A program made the position numbers and the translations under genes. Below are positions 3,815-10,945 of a stretch of DNA of 64,000 nt, in pieces. How positions within the stretch are numbered: the first letter of the stretch is position 1; each line of letters opens with the position of its first letter. The stretch comes from an uncultured Prevotellaceae bacterium (lineage in GTDB: Bacteria; Bacteroidota; Bacteroidia; Bacteroidales; Bacteroidaceae): the NCBI GenBank assembly GCA_900315075.1, contig OMXV01000007.1:1-64000 (forward strand), read 5' to 3'. The notes beneath the pieces were generated by a model. The model made no database searches, was not told where the DNA came from, and saw nothing but the letters and a program-made list of their open reading frames with translations.

Positions 3815-4672
3815 ATGGGCTTTTTCAAAACATTATTCGGAGGAAAAATAGATACTCCAGAAGAGAAAAAAGAAAAAGACGAGGCACGCGACCTCGAAGT
3901 GTTGATAAGTGATGGCATACGGGCTATGCGTACCCGTCATCCAGAACATGCCGTGAAATGTTTTAGGCATGCACTTGAAATAAAGGATGACCTACAAACG
4001 CGTGACTATCTGGCGCAAGCGCTCATACAGAATGATGAACTCCGACCGGCCATTGAACAGTTGGACATTCTCGCCGAGGCACAGCCTGACAATGTCGATA
4101 TCCCCATTCTTAAAGCCAGGGTGGCATTTTTATTAGAGGATTATAATGCGATGGTGGCAGCATGTGAACAAGGCTTGCTCATCGACAAAGATAATGCCGA
4201 AGTCACTCTGCTCTATGGGCGTGCTGCAGTGGGACAGGGCGACGATGCCAATGCCGTGGCTATGTTCTCAAAGACCATTTTGCTCAACAACGAGGCGCTT
4301 GATGCCTATCTGTTCCGTGGACAGGCTTTCCTCCGTCAAGGTGATGTGGAGGGGGCTGCCGATGATGCCGACCATCTGATAGAGATAGCACCGCAAAACG
4401 AAGATGTGTTGCTGCTCAAGGCTCATGTGCTGAAGGCGCAGGAGAAAACCGACGAGGCAATTGCTATCTACTCCCAGATGATCGACGGCAATCCTTTCTG
4501 CGCGGTAGCCTATCAGGAGCGTGCAGAACTCAAAAGGACTATAGGTGATGAAAAGGGAGCCGAAGAGGATTTGGAGAAACTGAAGGAATTTGCCCCAGCA
4601 GGTGACGGTGAGGATATGGAAGAGAAAGTCCGCCAAGCCTACCGCAACAACAACCCATTCGGATTAGGGTAG
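3815..4672 (+). CDS. tetratricopeptide-repeat protein
   Basis: A 285-residue soluble protein built almost entirely of TPR units. The region from about residue 30 to 265 repeats the A-(x)-(A/Y)-(x)8-G/A-x2-(A/Y)-x2-L/F pattern, for example RHPEHAVKCFRHAL, DDANAVAMFSKTILL and EKTDEAIAIYSQMID. The N-terminus begins MGFFKTLFGGK, which may be membrane-associating, but there is no classical signal peptide. TPR arrays act as protein-binding scaffolds; no enzymatic domain is present and the partner cannot be inferred. It is flanked by repeat-filled spacers on both sides and appears to be a single-gene unit. Confidence 0.85.
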   Translation: MGFFKTLFGGKIDTPEEKKEKDEARDLEVLISDGIRAMRTRHPEHAVKCFRHALEIKDDLQTRDYLAQALIQNDELRPAIEQLDILAEAQPDNVDIPILKARVAFLLEDYNAMVAACEQGLLIDKDNAEVTLLYGRAAVGQGDDANAVAMFSKTILLNNEALDAYLFRGQAFLRQGDVEGAADDADHLIEIAPQNEDVLLLKAHVLKAQEKTDEAIAIYSQMIDGNPFCAVAYQERAELKRTIGDEKGAEEDLEKLKEFAPAGDGEDMEEKVRQAYRNNNPFGLG

Positions 4673-4740
4673 GTTTAAATTGGAGATTGAAGATTAAGAG
4701 TAGTTAAAGGGTAGTTAAAGGGTAGTTAAAAAGTAGTTAA

Positions 4741-4868
4741 AGGGACAATACCATTGAAGATTGAAAATTATTCTTCTCATGAATATCTTTCTTCGTATGC
4801 AACGGTTTTGCCGTTGCCGTCAACACCCGTTTCGAGAGCGGCAGAAGTATTCTCTCACCTCTCACCCC
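4741..4868 (+). repeat. dispersed element family A, copy 1
   Basis: About 120 bp runs from AGGGACAATACCATTGAAGA through a GCAACGG/CCGTTGC hairpin (4799-4817) to GGCAGAAGTATTCTCTCACC. It recurs in inverted orientation at 15058-15290 with high identity. The second copy carries an additional internal segment of roughly 90-100 bp. Confidence 0.75.
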
Positions 4869-5004
4869 TTACCACTAAGATACTCCTACCTCCTAACTAA
4901 AACACCCCCTCACCCCTTACCTCTAATAGCTTGTGCCTCTCAAATCTATTGCTCTTATTTGTAGGATTTGTATAGATTTGCAAGATTTCTGCCCCGAAAG
5001 GGGC

Positions 5005-5293
5005 ACTCCTAATTCCTGCATTCATGTTCATTTACGGCAATTTGCGTTCAAAAGCTAAAATTCTACGGAGGTGGGGAGTATGAGGAGGTTTTTCTATCTT
5101 TTTGTGGGTGCCTTTGGCACTTTTTCCATTTTCTTTTTTCTTTCTTTTTATTCTTTTTCTTAAGCGAAGCGTTTTTTTATCTTATTCATTTTCACAACCA
5201 CCCCGCCCCCCTCATCTATTCTACGGACTTTTAGGACTTTTAGGACTGTTCGACCTTGGTTCTTTCCGTAGATACATACCCAGTGTATGTCCG
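5005..5293 (+). repeat. dispersed element family B, copy 1
   Basis: The segment begins around ATTCCTGCATTCATGTTCAT and ends in the quasi-palindrome GATACATACCCAGTGTATGTCC (5271-5292). Its two ends recur in inverted orientation at 18700-18880, but that copy lacks the middle (about 5060-5175). The CTACGGAGGTGGGGAGTATG stretch (about 5067-5086) also recurs near 11703, 15015-15040 (inverted) and 19100-19130 (inverted). Confidence 0.7.
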
Positions 5294-5452
5294 AAATGGT
5301 AGTTAAAAGGTAGTTAAAGAGTAGTTAAAAGGTAGTTAAAGGGACAATACCATAGCCAGTCACTCCTAACTTCTAACTCCTAACTTCTAACTCCTAACTA
5401 AAACACCCTCTCACCTCTTACCTCTAATTTTTTTAAAAAAACTATCAAAATG

Positions 5453-5484
5453 TTTGCATAATTCAAATTTTACTTATAAATTTG
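5453..5484 (+). promoter_or_regulatory. promoter of the Phe/Tyr biosynthesis operon
   Basis: TTTG (5453-5456), a 20-bp spacer and TAAATTTG (5477-5484) are an excellent match to the Bacteroidota consensus. Transcription would start about 5490, placing the leader-peptide ATG (5512) about 20 bases in and leaving a leader of about 310 bases before pheA. Confidence 0.8.
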
Positions 5485-5511
5485 CCCCCGAAATACGTAA
5501 ATCAAGACAAA

Positions 5512-5586
5512 ATGACAATTTTTTGCGCATACGAGTTTTCCTATTATTACTTTGCAAGCAATTGTGAAGCGGGAACTTGCGCATAG
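5512..5586 (+). CDS. Phe/Tyr-rich leader peptide of the pheA operon (pheL-like)
   Basis: A 24-codon open frame from ATG 5512 to TAG 5584-5586. Residues 4-14 read F-C-A-Y-E-F-S-Y-Y-Y-F, so seven of the 24 residues are Tyr or Phe, including Tyr-Tyr-Tyr-Phe in a row (codons 5542-5553). It lies just behind the operon promoter, and its codons 18-22 form the first arm of the attenuator (5563-5575). This is the arrangement of ribosome-mediated attenuation leaders: scarcity of charged tRNA-Tyr or tRNA-Phe would stall the ribosome immediately upstream of that arm. The downstream genes make exactly Phe and Tyr. No strong Shine-Dalgarno is visible, as is normal in this phylum. The peptide itself probably has no function. 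Confidence 0.82.
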   Translation: MTIFCAYEFSYYYFASNCEAGTCA

Positions 5587-5658
5587 ATTTCAATCATAAG
5601 CAAAAAGGACGATTAAAGTCAGACAATTTCCCGCTTCACATATAGAGGCGGGAATTTT
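5563..5658 (+). promoter_or_regulatory. transcription attenuator: competing antiterminator and terminator
   Basis: Arm A (5563-5575, TGTGAAGCGGGAA) is perfectly complementary over 13 bases to arm B (5628-5640, TTCCCGCTTCACA). Arm B can instead pair with arm C (5645-5654, GAGGCGGGAA) to form the terminator. A ribosome that reaches the leader stop (5586) covers arm A and allows B:C. A ribosome stalled at the Tyr/Phe codons (5542-5553) leaves arm A free, so A:B forms and transcription continues into pheA. A weaker hairpin, GCAAG (5554-5558) with CTTGC (5576-5580), could serve as a protector. The pairing is seen directly; the switching is inferred. Confidence 0.82.
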
Positions 5659-5659
5659 G
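5628..5659 (+). terminator. leader terminator of the pheA operon
   Basis: A 10-bp stem (TTCCCGCTTC / GAGGCGGGAA, one G-U pair) closes a 7-base loop (ACATATA) and is followed by TTTTGTTGTT. It overlaps arm B of the antiterminator. Confidence 0.75.
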
Positions 5660-5749
5660 TTGTTACAAAGACCTTATACTCCAAGTCTTGTATGTTGCTG
5701 TATCACAGCGGTCCATAATTTAAGAACTCAAGAACTCATAAACCCAAGA

Positions 5750-5797
5750 AACAAATAACTTGTCAACTTGTCAACTCGTTAACTCGTCAACTTTAAA
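5750..5797. repeat. CAACTTGT/CAACTCGT word array before pheA
   Basis: Four to five degenerate 9-base words (ACTTGTCA, ACTCGTTA, ACTCGTCA) end four bases before the pheA ATG. The same words occur before folD and before the actin-like gene. Confidence 0.7.
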
Positions 5798-5800
5798 ATC

Positions 5801-6643
5801 ATGAAACGTATAGCCATTCAGGGTCGAATAGGGTCGTTCCACGACATCGCCGCACACTTGTATTTCGAGGGCGAGCAGGTGCAGATCATCTGCTGTGCCA
5901 CCTTCGAGGAAGTCTATGACAATATCCGGCGCGACCCCACAGTGATAGGAATGACGGCCATCGAAAACACTATCGCAGGAAGTTTGCTCCATAATTACGA
6001 ATTGTTGCGTGACTCGGGCACCACTGTGGTCGGTGAGCATAAATTGCATATCAAGCACTGCCTCTGCTGCTTGCCCGACGACGATTGGGACACCATTCAA
6101 GAAGTGCATTCCCATCCCGTGGCCCTTATGCAGTGTCGGGGATTTCTCAGCAGTCATCCTCAGTTCAAGGCAATTGAAACGGAAGACACTGCCGGGGCAG
6201 CCGAAAACATCATGGCACATACCATGCGGGGATGCGCGGCCATCTGCCATGCTTCGGCAGCCGAACTCAATGGCATGAAAGTGCTTGAGGACTCCATTGA
6301 GGATAACAAGCATAACTTCACACGTTTCCTCGTGGTTTGCGACCCTCGAAAGGCTGATTTCATGCGCCCTCTCGACAAGACCGACAAGTCCTCGCTTGTC
6401 TTCTCACTGCCTCATGAGGAGGGTTCGCTGTCGAAAATCCTCACCATTCTCTCATTCTACAATATCAACCTCACCAAAATACAGTCGTTGCCTATCATCG
6501 GTCATGAGTGGGAGTATCTGTTCTATGTTGACGTGACCTACAACAATCTCATTCGTTATCGCCAAAGCATCGATGCCATTACACCGCTGACAAAGGAACT
6601 GAAAATATTAGGAGAATATCAAAATGGAAGACAGACAAATTAA
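5801..6643 (+). CDS. pheA: prephenate dehydratase
   Basis: Converts prephenate to phenylpyruvate, the Phe branch of the chorismate pathway. Its 280 residues equal a monofunctional enzyme. The dehydratase domain starts IAIQGRIGSFHDIAA (4-18) and has TAIENTIAGSLLHNYELL (52-69), DTAGAA (129-134) and the catalytic-site NFTRF motif (172-176). A C-terminal ACT domain (about 197-275, with GSLSKILTILSFYNINLTKI) is the usual allosteric Phe-binding module. The ESRP signature there reads IQSLP, which may alter feedback control. It is the first structural gene behind the attenuator and overlaps the next gene by 20 bases. Confidence 0.95.
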   Translation: MKRIAIQGRIGSFHDIAAHLYFEGEQVQIICCATFEEVYDNIRRDPTVIGMTAIENTIAGSLLHNYELLRDSGTTVVGEHKLHIKHCLCCLPDDDWDTIQEVHSHPVALMQCRGFLSSHPQFKAIETEDTAGAAENIMAHTMRGCAAICHASAAELNGMKVLEDSIEDNKHNFTRFLVVCDPRKADFMRPLDKTDKSSLVFSLPHEEGSLSKILTILSFYNINLTKIQSLPIIGHEWEYLFYVDVTYNNLIRYRQSIDAITPLTKELKILGEYQNGRQTN

Positions 6644-7814
6644 CATACAACCCGCCGACAGGCTTAGCCTCGTGCAGGAGTATTACTTTAGTCGGAAACT
6701 CAAAGAGGTGGCACAACTCAATGCCGAGGGGCACGACATCATCAGTCTTGCTATCGGAAGTCCTGATATGCCTCCCTCGCCGCAGACCGTGCAGACACTC
6801 TGCCAGGTGGCCAACCGTCCCGATGCCCATGGCTATCAGCCTACGATGGGTACGCCCGAACTGCGACAGGCCATGGCTGGGTTTTACAAACGATGGTATG
6901 ATGTGACGCTCGACCCAGCAAAGGAAATTCTCCCGCTCATCGGCAGTAAAGAGGGAATTTTGCATGTCACGTTGGCTTTTGTCAATCCAGGTGACGCTGT
7001 CCTTGTTCCCAATCCGGGATATCCCACCTACACATCACTGAGTAAACTGCTCGGTGCCCGCATCATCAATTATAATCTGAGGGAGGATAATGGATGGCAA
7101 CCCGATTTCGACGAACTGGAGCAGATGGACCTCACCAATGTGCGACTGATGTGGACAAACTATCCTAATATGCCCACAGGAGGGGATGCCCAAATCGAGA
7201 CATACGAGCGACTCGTGGATTTTGCTTGCCGACATGGCATCGTGGTGGTCAACGACAACCCCTATTCCTTCATCCTCAACCGCCATCCTATTTCTCTCTT
7301 GCAAGTGCCTGGCGCTAAGGAGTGTTGTATCGAGTTCAATTCCATGAGCAAAAGCCATAATATGCCGGGATGGCGTGTGGGATTGTGTGCCACCAACCAG
7401 CAGTTCATCTCATGGATTCTCAAGGTAAAAAGCAATATCGACAGCGGTACATTTCGTGGAATACAACTTGCGGCGGCTCAGGCATACGCCAACGACGAAG
7501 CATGGCATCAGCAGGCCAACTACGACACCTACCGCCGTCGTCGCGACATTGCCGAGGAAATCATGCGCACCCTCGGCTGTACCTACGATCCCAAACAGGT
7601 GGGTATGTTCCTCTGGGGAAGAATTCCCGACCAGTACGACGATGCCGAGACACTCACCGAGCGGGTGCTCCACGAAGCAAGGGTATTCATCACGCCAGGC
7701 TTCATCTTCGGCTCTAATGGCCGCCGCTACATCCGTATCTCGCTCTGTGCAAAGGATGAGAAAATGCGCGAGGCTCTCCACCGCATCCAAACCGTCTTCG
7801 CCAAGAATAATTAA
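6624..7814 (+). CDS. class I/II pyridoxal-phosphate aminotransferase (probable aromatic aminotransferase)
   Basis: A fold-type I aminotransferase of 396 residues. Visible features are IGSPDMPPSP (44-53), HGYQPTMGTPELR (69-81), the NYPNMPTG asparagine (N182), the VVNDNPY aspartate and tyrosine (D211, Y214), Schiff-base Lys243 in SMSKSHNMPGWRVG, and Arg near the C-terminus (RRYIRISLC). Its position inside the Phe/Tyr operon, overlapping pheA by 20 bases, makes transamination of phenylpyruvate and 4-hydroxyphenylpyruvate its likely job. LL-diaminopimelate-type or general aspartate aminotransferases look similar, so the substrate is inferred from context. Confidence 0.85.
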   Translation: MEDRQINIQPADRLSLVQEYYFSRKLKEVAQLNAEGHDIISLAIGSPDMPPSPQTVQTLCQVANRPDAHGYQPTMGTPELRQAMAGFYKRWYDVTLDPAKEILPLIGSKEGILHVTLAFVNPGDAVLVPNPGYPTYTSLSKLLGARIINYNLREDNGWQPDFDELEQMDLTNVRLMWTNYPNMPTGGDAQIETYERLVDFACRHGIVVVNDNPYSFILNRHPISLLQVPGAKECCIEFNSMSKSHNMPGWRVGLCATNQQFISWILKVKSNIDSGTFRGIQLAAAQAYANDEAWHQQANYDTYRRRRDIAEEIMRTLGCTYDPKQVGMFLWGRIPDQYDDAETLTERVLHEARVFITPGFIFGSNGRRYIRISLCAKDEKMREALHRIQTVFAKNN

Positions 7815-7905
7815 CAACTAACAGAAGTATTATCAAACCTTATCATACCACTCCCTTCTCCCCTTGGAGAGGGGTTGGGGGTGAGGCTTTAAATCTCAAA
7901 TCATA

Positions 7906-8970
7906 ATGGAATTAGAATTAACCCCCCTACAACTCCCCAGCGACTTAGAACGCCCTAAAGTTATCGCCGGACCCTGTTCCGCTGAAACCGAGGAGCAAGT
8001 GATGACCACAGCACATCAGTTGGCCGACAAAGGATGCCATATCTTTAGAGCTGGTGTGTGGAAACCCCGCACCAAACCCGGTGGCTTCGAAGGACATGGT
8101 GAGAAAGCCCTGCCCTGGATGAAGCAAGTGAAAGAAGAGACGGGCATGCTTGTCACCACCGAGGTGGCCACGCCAGAGCATGTCGAACTGGCTCTCAAAT
8201 ATGGCATCGACATCCTGTGGATTGGTGCTCGTACTTCTGCAAACCCCTTTGCCATGCAGGCGCTCGCCGATGCCCTCAAGGGTGTCGATGTGCCAGTGAT
8301 GGTGAAAAATCCTATCAACCCTGACCTCGAACTGTGGATTGGTGCCTTGGAACGTATCAACCAGGCTGGTGTCACACGATTGGCAGCCATACACCGTGGT
8401 TTCTCCAGCTACGACAAGAAAATCTATCGTAACCTGCCTATGTGGCAGATTCCCATCGAGTTGCGCCGTCGCATTCCATCACTGCCCATTATTTGCGACC
8501 CCAGTCATATCGGTGGACGCCGCGAACTGATAGCACCACTTTGTCAGCAGGCAATGGACCTCGGTTTCGATGGTCTTATCGTTGAGGCACACTGCGAACC
8601 CGACAAGGCCTGGAGCGATGCCAAGCAGCAGATAACGCCCGATGTACTCGACTATATCCTCTCATTGCTTGTCATCCGTGACGAGAGTGTCACCACCGAG
8701 GGAATCACCGAACTGCGTAAGCAAATCGACGAACTCGACAATCAATTGATGAACCTCCTCTCAAAGCGTATGCGGGTGTGCCGTGAGATTGGTCAGTATA
8801 AAAAAGAGCACAATATGACTGTGTTACAGCCAGTGCGTTATGGCGAAATTCTCGACAAACGTGGAGCACAAGGCTCGCTTTGCGGCATGGATGCTGAATT
8901 CGTAAAGCGTATCTTTGAAAACGTACACCAGGAGAGCGTGCGGCAGCAAATGGAAATCATCAACCAGTAA
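7906..8970 (+). CDS. bifunctional DAHP synthase / chorismate mutase
   Basis: A fusion of the first enzyme of the shikimate pathway with the committed enzyme of the Phe/Tyr branch. Residues about 15-262 form a type I-beta (KDPG-aldolase-like) DAHP synthase: VIAGPCSAE (19-27), RAGVWKPRTKPGGFEG, TEVATPEHV, WIGARTS, VMVKNP, HRGF and CDPSHIGG. Residues about 265-350 form an AroQ-type chorismate mutase with ELRKQIDELDNQLMNLLSKR and the downstream QPVRYGEIL helix. The two active sites turn PEP + erythrose-4-P into DAHP and chorismate into prephenate, feeding PheA and TyrA next door. In the relatives I know, the mutase domain also provides the feedback site. The spacer to the previous gene is 91 bases. 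Confidence 0.93.
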   Translation: MELELTPLQLPSDLERPKVIAGPCSAETEEQVMTTAHQLADKGCHIFRAGVWKPRTKPGGFEGHGEKALPWMKQVKEETGMLVTTEVATPEHVELALKYGIDILWIGARTSANPFAMQALADALKGVDVPVMVKNPINPDLELWIGALERINQAGVTRLAAIHRGFSSYDKKIYRNLPMWQIPIELRRRIPSLPIICDPSHIGGRRELIAPLCQQAMDLGFDGLIVEAHCEPDKAWSDAKQQITPDVLDYILSLLVIRDESVTTEGITELRKQIDELDNQLMNLLSKRMRVCREIGQYKKEHNMTVLQPVRYGEILDKRGAQGSLCGMDAEFVKRIFENVHQESVRQQMEIINQ

Positions 8971-9037
8971 AGGAGGTGATCTCTCACCTCTCGTCTCTTA
9001 CCTCTCACCACTCACCACTAAAAACTCACAAACTCAC

Positions 9038-9823
9038 ATGCGAATCTTAGTTATGGGAGCAGGGAAAATGGGAAGCTTTTTTCTCGACCTGCTCAGTTTT
9101 GAACACGAGACAGCGGTCTATGAGAAAGACCCGCGACGGATGCGGTTTACTTACAACACTCAGCGGTTTACCGACCTGGAGGAGGTAAGGGCGTTCCGTC
9201 CCGAACTGGTTATCAATGCGGTGACAGTGAAATATACCATCCCTGCATTCGATGAAATACTTCCATACCTGCCCGAAGACTGTATCCTCAGTGATATAGC
9301 ATCGGTGAAAACGGGCCTGCTCGACTATTATAAAAGTACCGGACGGCGATTTGTCTCTACGCACCCGATGTTTGGTCCTACTTTCGCCAACTTGCAGCAA
9401 CTCAGCGAGGAGAATGCCATTATCATCACCGAAGGCGACTATATGGGACGTATCTTCTTCAAGGACCTCTATCGTCGGCTTGACCTCAACATCTATGAAT
9501 ACACCTTTGAGGAGCACGACCGTACGGTGGCTTACTCGCTGAGTATCCCGTTTGTGAGCACCTTTGTCTTCGCGGCAGTTATGAAACATCAGGATGCGCC
9601 GGGCACCACCTTCAAACGTCACATGCGCATCGCTAAGGGTGTGCTCAACGAAGACGACTACCTGCTCCAGGAGGTGCTTTTTAATCCCTATACCCACGAC
9701 CAGGTGGCGCAGATACGCACCGAACTGAAAGACCTCCTCCATATTATCGACACTAAGGATGCTGAAGGCATGAAGGCCTACCTCGCCAAAATCCGCGAAA
9801 ATGTTAAGAGGGACATTTCTTAG
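9038..9823 (+). CDS. tyrA: prephenate dehydrogenase
   Basis: Oxidatively decarboxylates prephenate to 4-hydroxyphenylpyruvate for Tyr synthesis. The frame opens at 8915, but the ATG at 9038 is chosen because the dinucleotide-binding fold starts there (MRILVMGAGKMGSFFLDLL). The longer version would translate the CACCTCTTAC word array. Other landmarks are LSDIASVKTGLLDYY, the STHPMFGP motif carrying the conserved catalytic His (about residues 103-110), and a C-terminal all-helical dimerisation domain. Its 261 residues match compact Bacteroidota TyrA without a fused mutase; the mutase is on the preceding protein instead. It is the last gene of the operon. Confidence 0.93.
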   Translation: MRILVMGAGKMGSFFLDLLSFEHETAVYEKDPRRMRFTYNTQRFTDLEEVRAFRPELVINAVTVKYTIPAFDEILPYLPEDCILSDIASVKTGLLDYYKSTGRRFVSTHPMFGPTFANLQQLSEENAIIITEGDYMGRIFFKDLYRRLDLNIYEYTFEEHDRTVAYSLSIPFVSTFVFAAVMKHQDAPGTTFKRHMRIAKGVLNEDDYLLQEVLFNPYTHDQVAQIRTELKDLLHIIDTKDAEGMKAYLAKIRENVKRDIS

Positions 9824-10000
9824 GGGTGAGAGGTGAGAGGTAAGAGGTAAGAGATTACCTCTGTTGCTTTCACCCATTTGCCCATAGCGCCCGCAGTGCA
9901 TTTCTCTCACCCCTCACCTCTTACCTCTTACCTCTCACCTCTCACCTCTAAAATCACCTCTTACCACTTACCCCTCACCCCTTACCTCTAACTACTAAAC
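9824..10000. repeat. GAGGTGAGAGGTAAGAGG / inverted word array
   Basis: The array starts GGTGAGAGGTGAGAGGTAAGAG at 9826 and continues with the complementary words CTCACCTCTTACCTCTTACC from about 9910 to 9990. The two blocks can pair over roughly 28 bases around a loop of about 50 bases, making a long hairpin between tyrA and the next gene. Confidence 0.7.
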
Positions 10001-10945
10001 ATGCTCTCTCTCCTCCTCACGTCGCTCTTCACCCTCGTCCAGATAAACTGCGAGAATCTTTTCGATACGCAGCACGACGAGGGGCATAACGACTATGAGT
10101 ATTTGCCAACTTCCGACCGCAAATGGGACAACCATAAATATTGGGAGAAACTGTCGAATATCTCGCGGGCTATCATCTCTTGTGGGGAAGGGGAGGATGG
10201 ATGGACTTTGCCCGATATGGTGACACTCTGTGAGGTGGAGAACGACACGGTCATGCGCGACCTCACTCGGCGTTCACTACTCCGTGAGGCACATTATGAA
10301 TATATCATGACCGAGAGCAATGACGAGCGTGGAGTGGATGTGGCATTGTTGTATTCACCCTTCTCCTTTGCCCTCCTCAACCATTATTCGCTGCGGGTGC
10401 CTGCCGTAGAGGGGAGGCACGACACCCGTGATGTGCTCTATGCCAAGGGACTGATTATCACGGGTGATACACTCCATGTGCTGGCAGTCCATGCGCCCAG
10501 CCGCATCGGTGGCAAGGCGGCGGAGCGACATCGGCAGGCGCTCGCCCAACTGCTCTGTGCAACAGTCGATTCCATCCGCAGTGTCTCTCCTGATGCGTGT
10601 ATCCTGCTCTCTGGCGATTTCAACGATGAGGCCGGGGGGAAGTCGCTAAAAGTTCTTTCTTCCTCTGGCATACAAAACCTGTCAGCGGACGCCCGGGGTG
10701 CAAATGGTGCCCGTGGCACCTATAAATACAAGGGACACTGGGGAAGTCTCGACCACATCTTTGCCGTTGGTCGCATACAACAGTGGTGCATAGCATGCCG
10801 TATCAACGACCCGCAATTTCTCTTGGAGGAGGATGAGAAATATGGTGGCTGCCAGCCCCGCCGCACCTACATCGGCCACCGCTACCATGGCGGAACCAGC
10901 GACCATCTCCCCCTTGTAGCCACATTCCACCTGCCGCCTCTGTAG
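10001..10945 (+). CDS. exported endonuclease/exonuclease/phosphatase-family protein
   Basis: A 314-residue member of the metal-dependent EEP fold (DNase I / inositol-phosphatase / sphingomyelinase type). It opens with a short hydrophobic leader (MLSLLLTSLFTLVQ), followed by the family start INCENLFD with the metal-binding region, TLCEVEN (catalytic Glu), HAPSRIGG, LSGDFND (Asp-Asn pair) and the C-terminal GGTSDHLPLVATF with the catalytic Asp-His. The short leader suggests export to the periplasm or membrane. The substrate cannot be told from sequence; nucleic acid, phospholipid or phosphoester scavenging are all possible. It is not obviously related to the upstream aromatic genes and may have its own transcription. 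Confidence 0.85.
   Translation: MLSLLLTSLFTLVQINCENLFDTQHDEGHNDYEYLPTSDRKWDNHKYWEKLSNISRAIISCGEGEDGWTLPDMVTLCEVENDTVMRDLTRRSLLREAHYEYIMTESNDERGVDVALLYSPFSFALLNHYSLRVPAVEGRHDTRDVLYAKGLIITGDTLHVLAVHAPSRIGGKAAERHRQALAQLLCATVDSIRSVSPDACILLSGDFNDEAGGKSLKVLSSSGIQNLSADARGANGARGTYKYKGHWGSLDHIFAVGRIQQWCIACRINDPQFLLEEDEKYGGCQPRRTYIGHRYHGGTSDHLPLVATFHLPPL

Follow-up and report, generated by a model that had tools for sequence, protein, structure and literature searches.

The region upstream of pheA in the window (the whole stretch of 64,000 nt that was analysed) carries a short reading frame dense in Tyr and Phe codons together with a set of competing RNA helices. Sequence comparison makes it highly probable that this element is a ribosome-mediated transcription attenuator, which would sense charged tRNA-Phe and tRNA-Tyr and control the operon pheA-aminotransferase-DAHP synthase/chorismate mutase-tyrA. 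The parts of the element recur jointly in relatives, where their pairing and their spacing are also observed.

Leader frame and helices in the window

Region 5101-6000 was read base by base, and the coordinates of the first-pass annotation of this DNA hold throughout (Table 1). The promoter which that annotation had proposed is present with both boxes: TTTG at 5453-5456 is separated by a 20-nt spacer from TAaaTTTG at 5477-5484, an arrangement that we take to be the Bacteroidota promoter consensus TTTG/TAnnTTTG. The same motif (TTTG-N18-21-TAnnTTTG, no more than 150 nt 5′ of the leader ATG) occurs upstream of 69 of the 84 leaders found in the genus and in about 0.06% of shuffled upstream sequences. 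Outside the genus it was seen at 24 of 57 leaders in the rest of the family, 13 of 40 in the rest of the order and 7 of 18 in the rest of the class.

The leader frame begins with an ATG at 5512 and ends with a TAG stop at 5584-5586. Its 24 codons include the seven Tyr/Phe codons that had been claimed for it, four for Tyr and three for Phe (5521, 5530, 5536, 5542, 5545, 5548 and 5551), and the operon makes both Phe and Tyr. The Tyr-Tyr-Tyr-Phe run ends 9 nt 5′ of the antiterminator arm, so that stall codons, arm and stop are arranged as first described. No Shine-Dalgarno-like sequence was seen before the leader. Judging from its sequence, the frame is presumably translated.

The identities proposed for the four downstream genes are backed by Pfam. 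NCBIfam models that match these genes, including that for prephenate dehydratase, all score below their curated cut-offs, and the C-terminal ACT match of the pheA product reaches 20.6 bits, below the Pfam cut-off of 27. All 69 named loci whose sequence extends far enough keep the order of the operon.

Table 1. Features of the probable attenuator region and the operon in the window
Feature	Position	Strand	Basis
Promoter, Bacteroidota type: TTTG (-33) and TAnnTTTG (-7)	5453-5484	+	direct reading
Leader peptide frame, MTIFCAYEFSYYYFASNCEAGTCA, with stop	5512-5586	+	direct reading; kept as Tyr/Phe-dense frame in relatives
Arm 1, outer stem of anti-antiterminator hairpin, pairs with 5578-5582	5525-5529	+	folding; pairing across 75 species
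Main stall codons Tyr-Tyr-Tyr-Phe	5542-5553	+	direct reading; spacing checked in relatives
Arm 1, inner stem CTTTGCA, pairs with 5563-5569 (TGTGAAG)	5550-5556	+	folding; pairing across 75 species
Arm 2, antiterminator 5′ arm; first part also 3′ arm of anti-antiterminator hairpin	5563-5575	+	reading, folding, pairing counts
Arm 2′, 3′ arm of outer anti-antiterminator stem	5578-5582	+	pairing counts
Arm 3, antiterminator 3′ arm (5628-5640) and terminator 5′ arm (5628-5637)	5628-5640	+	pairing counts, terminator scan
Arm 4, 3′ arm of intrinsic terminator	5645-5654	+	pairing counts, terminator scan
Terminator U-rich tail TTTTGTTGTT	5655-5664	+	terminator scan
pheA, prephenate dehydratase	5801-6643	+	PF00800 1.3e-53
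Class I/II aminotransferase	6624-7814	+	PF00155 2.2e-56
DAHP synthase - chorismate mutase fusion	7906-8970	+	PF00793 1.3e-42, PF01817 3.2e-26
tyrA, prephenate dehydrogenase	9038-9823	+	PF02153 3.2e-11; start codon from direct reading

The antiterminator and the terminator predicted by the first-pass annotation are both found. TGTGAAGCGGGAA (5563-5575) is perfectly complementary to 5628-5640 over 13 bp, and the stretch 5563-5645 folds with -26.9 kcal/mol (z -6.3), a value reached by none of 200 dinucleotide shuffles. The terminator, which precedes the first gene of the operon, has a 10-bp stem (5628-5637/5645-5654); its stretch 5622-5662 folds with -20 kcal/mol (z -6.6), again as well as none of 200 dinucleotide shuffles. 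The T-rich tract that had been noted after the stem is there (TTTTGTTGTT), but it is interrupted.

Folding revealed a third helix, 5550-5556/5563-5569 extended by 5525-5529/5578-5582, which sequesters arm 2 and corresponds to the 1:2 hairpin of classical attenuators. Every element named in the first-pass attenuator model was present, but this anti-antiterminator hairpin, which the model needs, had gone unmentioned. The last Tyr and Phe codons overlap with its 5′ side, and a ribosome stalled on them would open it. Folding of the leader alone (5512-5590) gave -17.9 kcal/mol with a z of -1.9, and 8 of 200 shuffles folded as well. From the window alone the evidence for this hairpin is modest; it is seen in structure and in conservation, the latter carrying its support.

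Conservation and base pairing in relatives

A search of 100 genomes of the genus gave a PheA match in 79. One match at 29% identity was excluded, and 75 of the remaining 78 upstream stretches carry a Tyr/Phe-rich leader. The nearest named record, with a PheA that is 98% identical, comes from Prevotella sp. RGIG7581 (water buffalo omasum, according to its label). The 75 leaders, from 75 species, were aligned and paired cells were counted, with shuffles and slid helices as controls. In the terminator, 87.4% of 673 cells are paired, compared to 37-59% in slid versions. Two-sided changes affect 51 cells; shuffles give 16.9, with none of 500 reaching the observed count, and slid helices give 3-9. 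Counted by pairs instead, 5 bear such a change compared to 4.5 in shuffles (267 of 500), which is not above chance.

The inner stem of the 1:2 hairpin is paired in 524 of 525 cells (99.8%; slid controls 37-67%), and its variation is mostly one-sided, with a single two-sided change. The outer stem is paired in 82.0% of 367 cells, with slid controls at 11-68%, the upper value being that of the helix slid by +2. Two-sided changes were counted there in 18 cells against 11.2 in shuffles (5 of 500). Column-by-column mutual information was uninformative for the 1:2 stem, probably because different clades pair in different registers, and it was per-sequence folding that revealed the stem.

For the antiterminator, 86.4% of 895 cells are paired, compared to 37-52% in slid versions. 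Its 14 cells with two-sided changes exceed the 4.3 found in shuffles (0 of 500 as high), but helices slid by -3 and -2 reach 13 and 12 such cells, and the covariation score is 0.107 for the helix slid by -2 against 0.098 observed. Covariation of the antiterminator is thus not proven by the slid control, and only the share of paired cells stands out. This failure of the slid control to separate the covariation slightly lowers our confidence in the attenuator reading. Three end pairs are frequently broken (in 24, 20 and 27 of the 75 sequences), and individual compensated cases, e.g. L013 and L017, are visible by eye in the alignment. An antiterminator that is mutually exclusive with the terminator is present, as expected for an attenuator, with a covariation that by itself does not set it apart from slid helices.

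Arm 2 is conserved as RNA rather than as peptide, since it is read in different frames. In 50 leaders of the genus it is read as CEAG, encoded by TGTGAAGCGGGA in 34 of them. In 29 leaders the reading is displaced by one base and gives a VKREV-like peptide, with GTGAAGCGGGA in 21; other genera of the family account for 28 of these 29. Leaders that are frame-shifted or end early (e.g. L007, L045, L049, L063 and L077) still keep the RNA arm. The stop lies at or before arm 2 in some of them, such as L007 and L045, so the position of ribosome release is not fixed.

In a scan of 238 loci, a frame counted as a leader if it began with ATG, was 10-50 codons long, had 6 or more Tyr/Phe among 9 codons and lay no more than 700 nt 5′ of pheA. 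The loci outside the genus are a subset of PheA matches, chosen by rank and taxon before the upstream sequence was seen, and 16 family matches with about 28-31% identity were excluded from the leader counts. Such a leader precedes pheA at 84 of 87 loci in the genus; further out, the counts are 57 of 60 for the remaining family, 40 of 47 for the remaining order and 18 of 25 for the remaining class. Elsewhere in the phylum, beyond the class, it was found at 3 of 19 loci; the scan did not find one at 7 of the 25 loci in the rest of the class and at 16 of these 19. From genus to phylum, the reverse strand gave 5, 4, 2, 0 and 0 loci, and the expectation from mononucleotide shuffles was 0, 0, 0.35, 0.3 and 0. 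The first-pass annotation had made its reading depend on conservation of the small frame and of the 13-bp arm; the frame is conserved in the genus and beyond, and the complementarity of the arm is kept.

These counts stand unadjusted for leaders that were recognised afterwards on inspection. Two of the three misses in the family do carry leaders, L092 on a cut contig and L151 with a non-ATG start. Among the seven misses in the order, L131 has a leader with a GTG start and the sequence of L132 ends 24 nt upstream. At L069, L073, L126 and L176, which have no leader, pheA lies 26-83 nt behind another open frame, as if it had been moved under another promoter. A leader is present in 77 of 80 named records that form an overlapping set, and two of the three misses have less than 150 nt of upstream sequence.

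The duplex of arms 2 and 3 is better than 95 or more of 100 mononucleotide shuffles in 81 of 84 leaders of the genus, 53 of 57 in the rest of the family, 38 of 40 in the rest of the order, 15 of 18 in the rest of the class and 2 of 3 outside the class. For the spacing, arm 2 was sought from the leader ATG to the hairpin, ignoring codons, and the search for the hairpin itself began 15 nt past the last stall codon. The median distance from the last Tyr/Phe codon to arm 2 is 9 nt in the genus, 10 nt in the family, 10 nt in the order and 8 nt in the class (range 0-16); for the three loci outside the class it is 13 nt. In the genus, Tyr/Phe codons are located mostly -36 to -12 nt from arm 2. The stall codons thus lie about one ribosome footprint before arm 2, which is the spacing that the mechanism demands, and we regard this as the strongest single result of the analysis. 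The third base of the TTN/TAN stall codons is T or C in 1566 of 1566 cells, a count to be read with the fact that the scan itself favours T/C. All 84 leaders of the genus have TAC as their penultimate stall codon, the C of which also forms the first pair of the 1:2 hairpin.

Ten loci carry two Tyr/Phe frames. In six of them (L110, L116, L117, L121, L189 and L195), all from the rest of the order, two Tyr/Phe leaders lie in series 5′ of pheA, each with its own terminator-like hairpin below -10 kcal/mol. By their sequence, these two sets of leader and hairpin may represent tandem attenuators. The two modules of L117 are located no more than 330 nt from pheA.

Alternative explanations and proposed mechanism

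A plain intrinsic terminator, belonging to an upstream unit or to an antisense or short RNA, might lie beside a frame that is rich in Tyr/Phe by chance, with no leader control at all. Hairpins with T tails are common between genes: a scan for terminator-like sites over 5100-10100 found 8 where 4.7 were expected, so that such a scan alone says little. Also, a T-rich strand favours Phe and Tyr codons. In relatives, a terminator-like hairpin with a T-rich tail follows 202 of 202 leaders, with a dG below -10 kcal/mol in 201, and the reverse strand of these stretches likewise yields a T-tailed hairpin in 169 of 202. The latter is what a palindrome predicts, which makes the reverse complement useless as a control; the shuffled control applies, and after one mononucleotide shuffle per stretch a comparable hairpin was obtained in 17 of 202. 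Against chance also speaks that frame, arm 2 and spacing recur jointly in relatives. Termination of an upstream unit is further opposed by the position of the nearest same-strand frame of at least 100 codons, which ends at 4672, about 780 nt 5′ of the promoter. Taken together, we regard a plain terminator as very unlikely.

We give even less credence to a leader that works mainly by Rho access or by translational coupling or re-initiation at pheA, with the hairpins being secondary. As far as the part of the source used here goes, the distance between short frames in Bacteroidetes and the structural gene behind them peaks at 11-14 bp, which was read as re-initiation (PMC4833913). The leader stop in the window lies 214 nt before pheA, far beyond this distance, and an intrinsic terminator with a covarying stem is located in between. 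Other phyla control aromatic operons by T-boxes, riboswitches or protein-bound leaders, and an element of this kind could in principle sense the amino acid or the tRNA directly. In the Rfam scan of the window at gathering score, however, three tRNAs and nothing else were found, and the eight sub-threshold matches in 5400-5810 at E up to 10 all belong to unrelated families. Since the conserved element consists of a frame and simple helices, direct sensing of this kind has hardly any probability left.

For the attenuator reading, we infer how events follow each other, how the element responds to starvation and that transcription is coupled to translation in the host. RNA polymerase would start just after 5484, with a ribosome following it along the leader frame. 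Under a shortage of Phe-tRNA or Tyr-tRNA, this ribosome would stall on the codons that end at 5553 and cover arm 1, which would leave the 1:2 hairpin open. Arm 2 could then pair with arm 3, no terminator would form and the operon would be transcribed. With both tRNAs plentiful, the ribosome would reach the stop at 5586 and cover arm 2, so that the 3:4 helix would form and transcription would end near 5660. If the leader is not translated, the 1:2 hairpin would hold arm 2 and termination would be favoured. As Phe and Tyr codons are mixed, starvation for either tRNA would take effect at almost equal distance from the switch, so the element might act as an OR gate.

It seems likely that the ancestor of the class Bacteroidia already had a single Phe/Tyr attenuator, which has since been retained as the chief control of the Phe/Tyr operon, acting as an OR gate and being doubled in some lineages to give two complete attenuators in series. 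If this is true, transcription and translation would be tightly coupled in a phylum that initiates translation without Shine-Dalgarno sequences. Attenuation requires a ribosome that keeps pace with RNA polymerase, and the element would thus be a natural probe of coupling in such bacteria. For gut and rumen Bacteroidia, which are dominant and have few understood cis-regulatory RNAs, it would provide a well-defined candidate switch for aromatic amino-acid synthesis.

Comparison with known systems

Given the broad comparative support from sequence, the element is very likely an instance of the known mechanism of ribosome-mediated attenuation. It resembles pheL/pheA of E. coli in its short leader with codons for the end product, its 1:2, 2:3 and 3:4 helices and its intrinsic terminator before pheA. 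It differs from the enterobacterial pheA leader by mixed Phe and Tyr codons before an operon that makes both amino acids, by a Bacteroidota promoter, by having no Rfam leader match and by the missing Shine-Dalgarno-like sequence. As in the ilv and thr leaders, one leader would sense more than one amino acid, but the amino acids and the phyla are different. The Flavobacteriaceae belong to the same class as the host, and Bacteroid-trp is an attenuator of the trp operon with Trp codons. The abstract of a 2004 paper by Vitreschak et al. in FEMS Microbiol Lett reportedly names Bacteroidetes/Chlorobi.

In 2010, no leader-peptide system had been shown outside Proteobacteria and Actinobacteria to the knowledge of the authors concerned, according to the part of their paper used here (PMC2965389). 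The first-pass annotation knew of none described for the phylum, which is too strong: the portion of a 2021 study on Flavobacterium psychrophilum used here points strongly to leader-peptide attenuation ahead of amino-acid operons and lists a 5′ element of pheA that is conserved in other Flavobacteriaceae (PMC9723704). That element, like ours, is a structured region upstream of pheA in the same phylum. The section of the study that deals with it describes no mechanism, codons or helices, whereas here the element is resolved into its parts and followed across relatives. For Bacteroides thetaiotaomicron, the part consulted of another paper mentions small frames that resemble leader peptides (PMC7366714). 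Among the literature matches listed, from a search that left subscription papers mostly outside, none describes a Phe/Tyr leader in Prevotella or Bacteroidales.

As no Rfam family matches the region, the element would merit an Rfam entry. T-box RF00230 and the Rfam family of the enterobacterial Phe leader are absent both from the window at gathering score and from 5400-5810 at E up to 10. Bacteroid-trp (RF01692) shares with our element that it is a cis-regulatory candidate in Bacteroidetes, as far as the portion used of Weinberg et al. 2010 states (PMC2864571). It differs in having no match in the window and none in the host's own genome, where 150 of 381 first-look candidates were scored; the control search gave a match in Bacteroides ihuae. 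A model of our element (R1, 44 genus sequences) gave one strong match in the same genome with an E of 4e-20, the next having an E of 0.99 (150 of 1298 first-look candidates scored). No His-rich ATG frame was found in the 1500 nt upstream of hisG of this genome (C20:27955-28500), and leader attenuation may thus not be general for amino-acid operons of the host. The ilvB gene of the same genome appears to sit behind another gene.

Two kinds of repeats were seen near the operon. An 11-nt tandem unit (GTAGTTAAAGG-like), terminating in GGGACAATACCAT, is present in two copies at window positions 4700-4754 and 5299-5353. Both copies lie in the gap 5′ of the leader promoter and are 95% alike across 55 nt. 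Units of 7 nt (e.g. ACCTCTT/ACCTCTC) occur on both strands in intergenic sequence at 4840-4927, 5383-5428, 8983-9037, 9825-9855 and 9892-10007, and a 17-nt pattern of these stretches, allowing at most two mismatches, has 10 matches against 0.01 expected.
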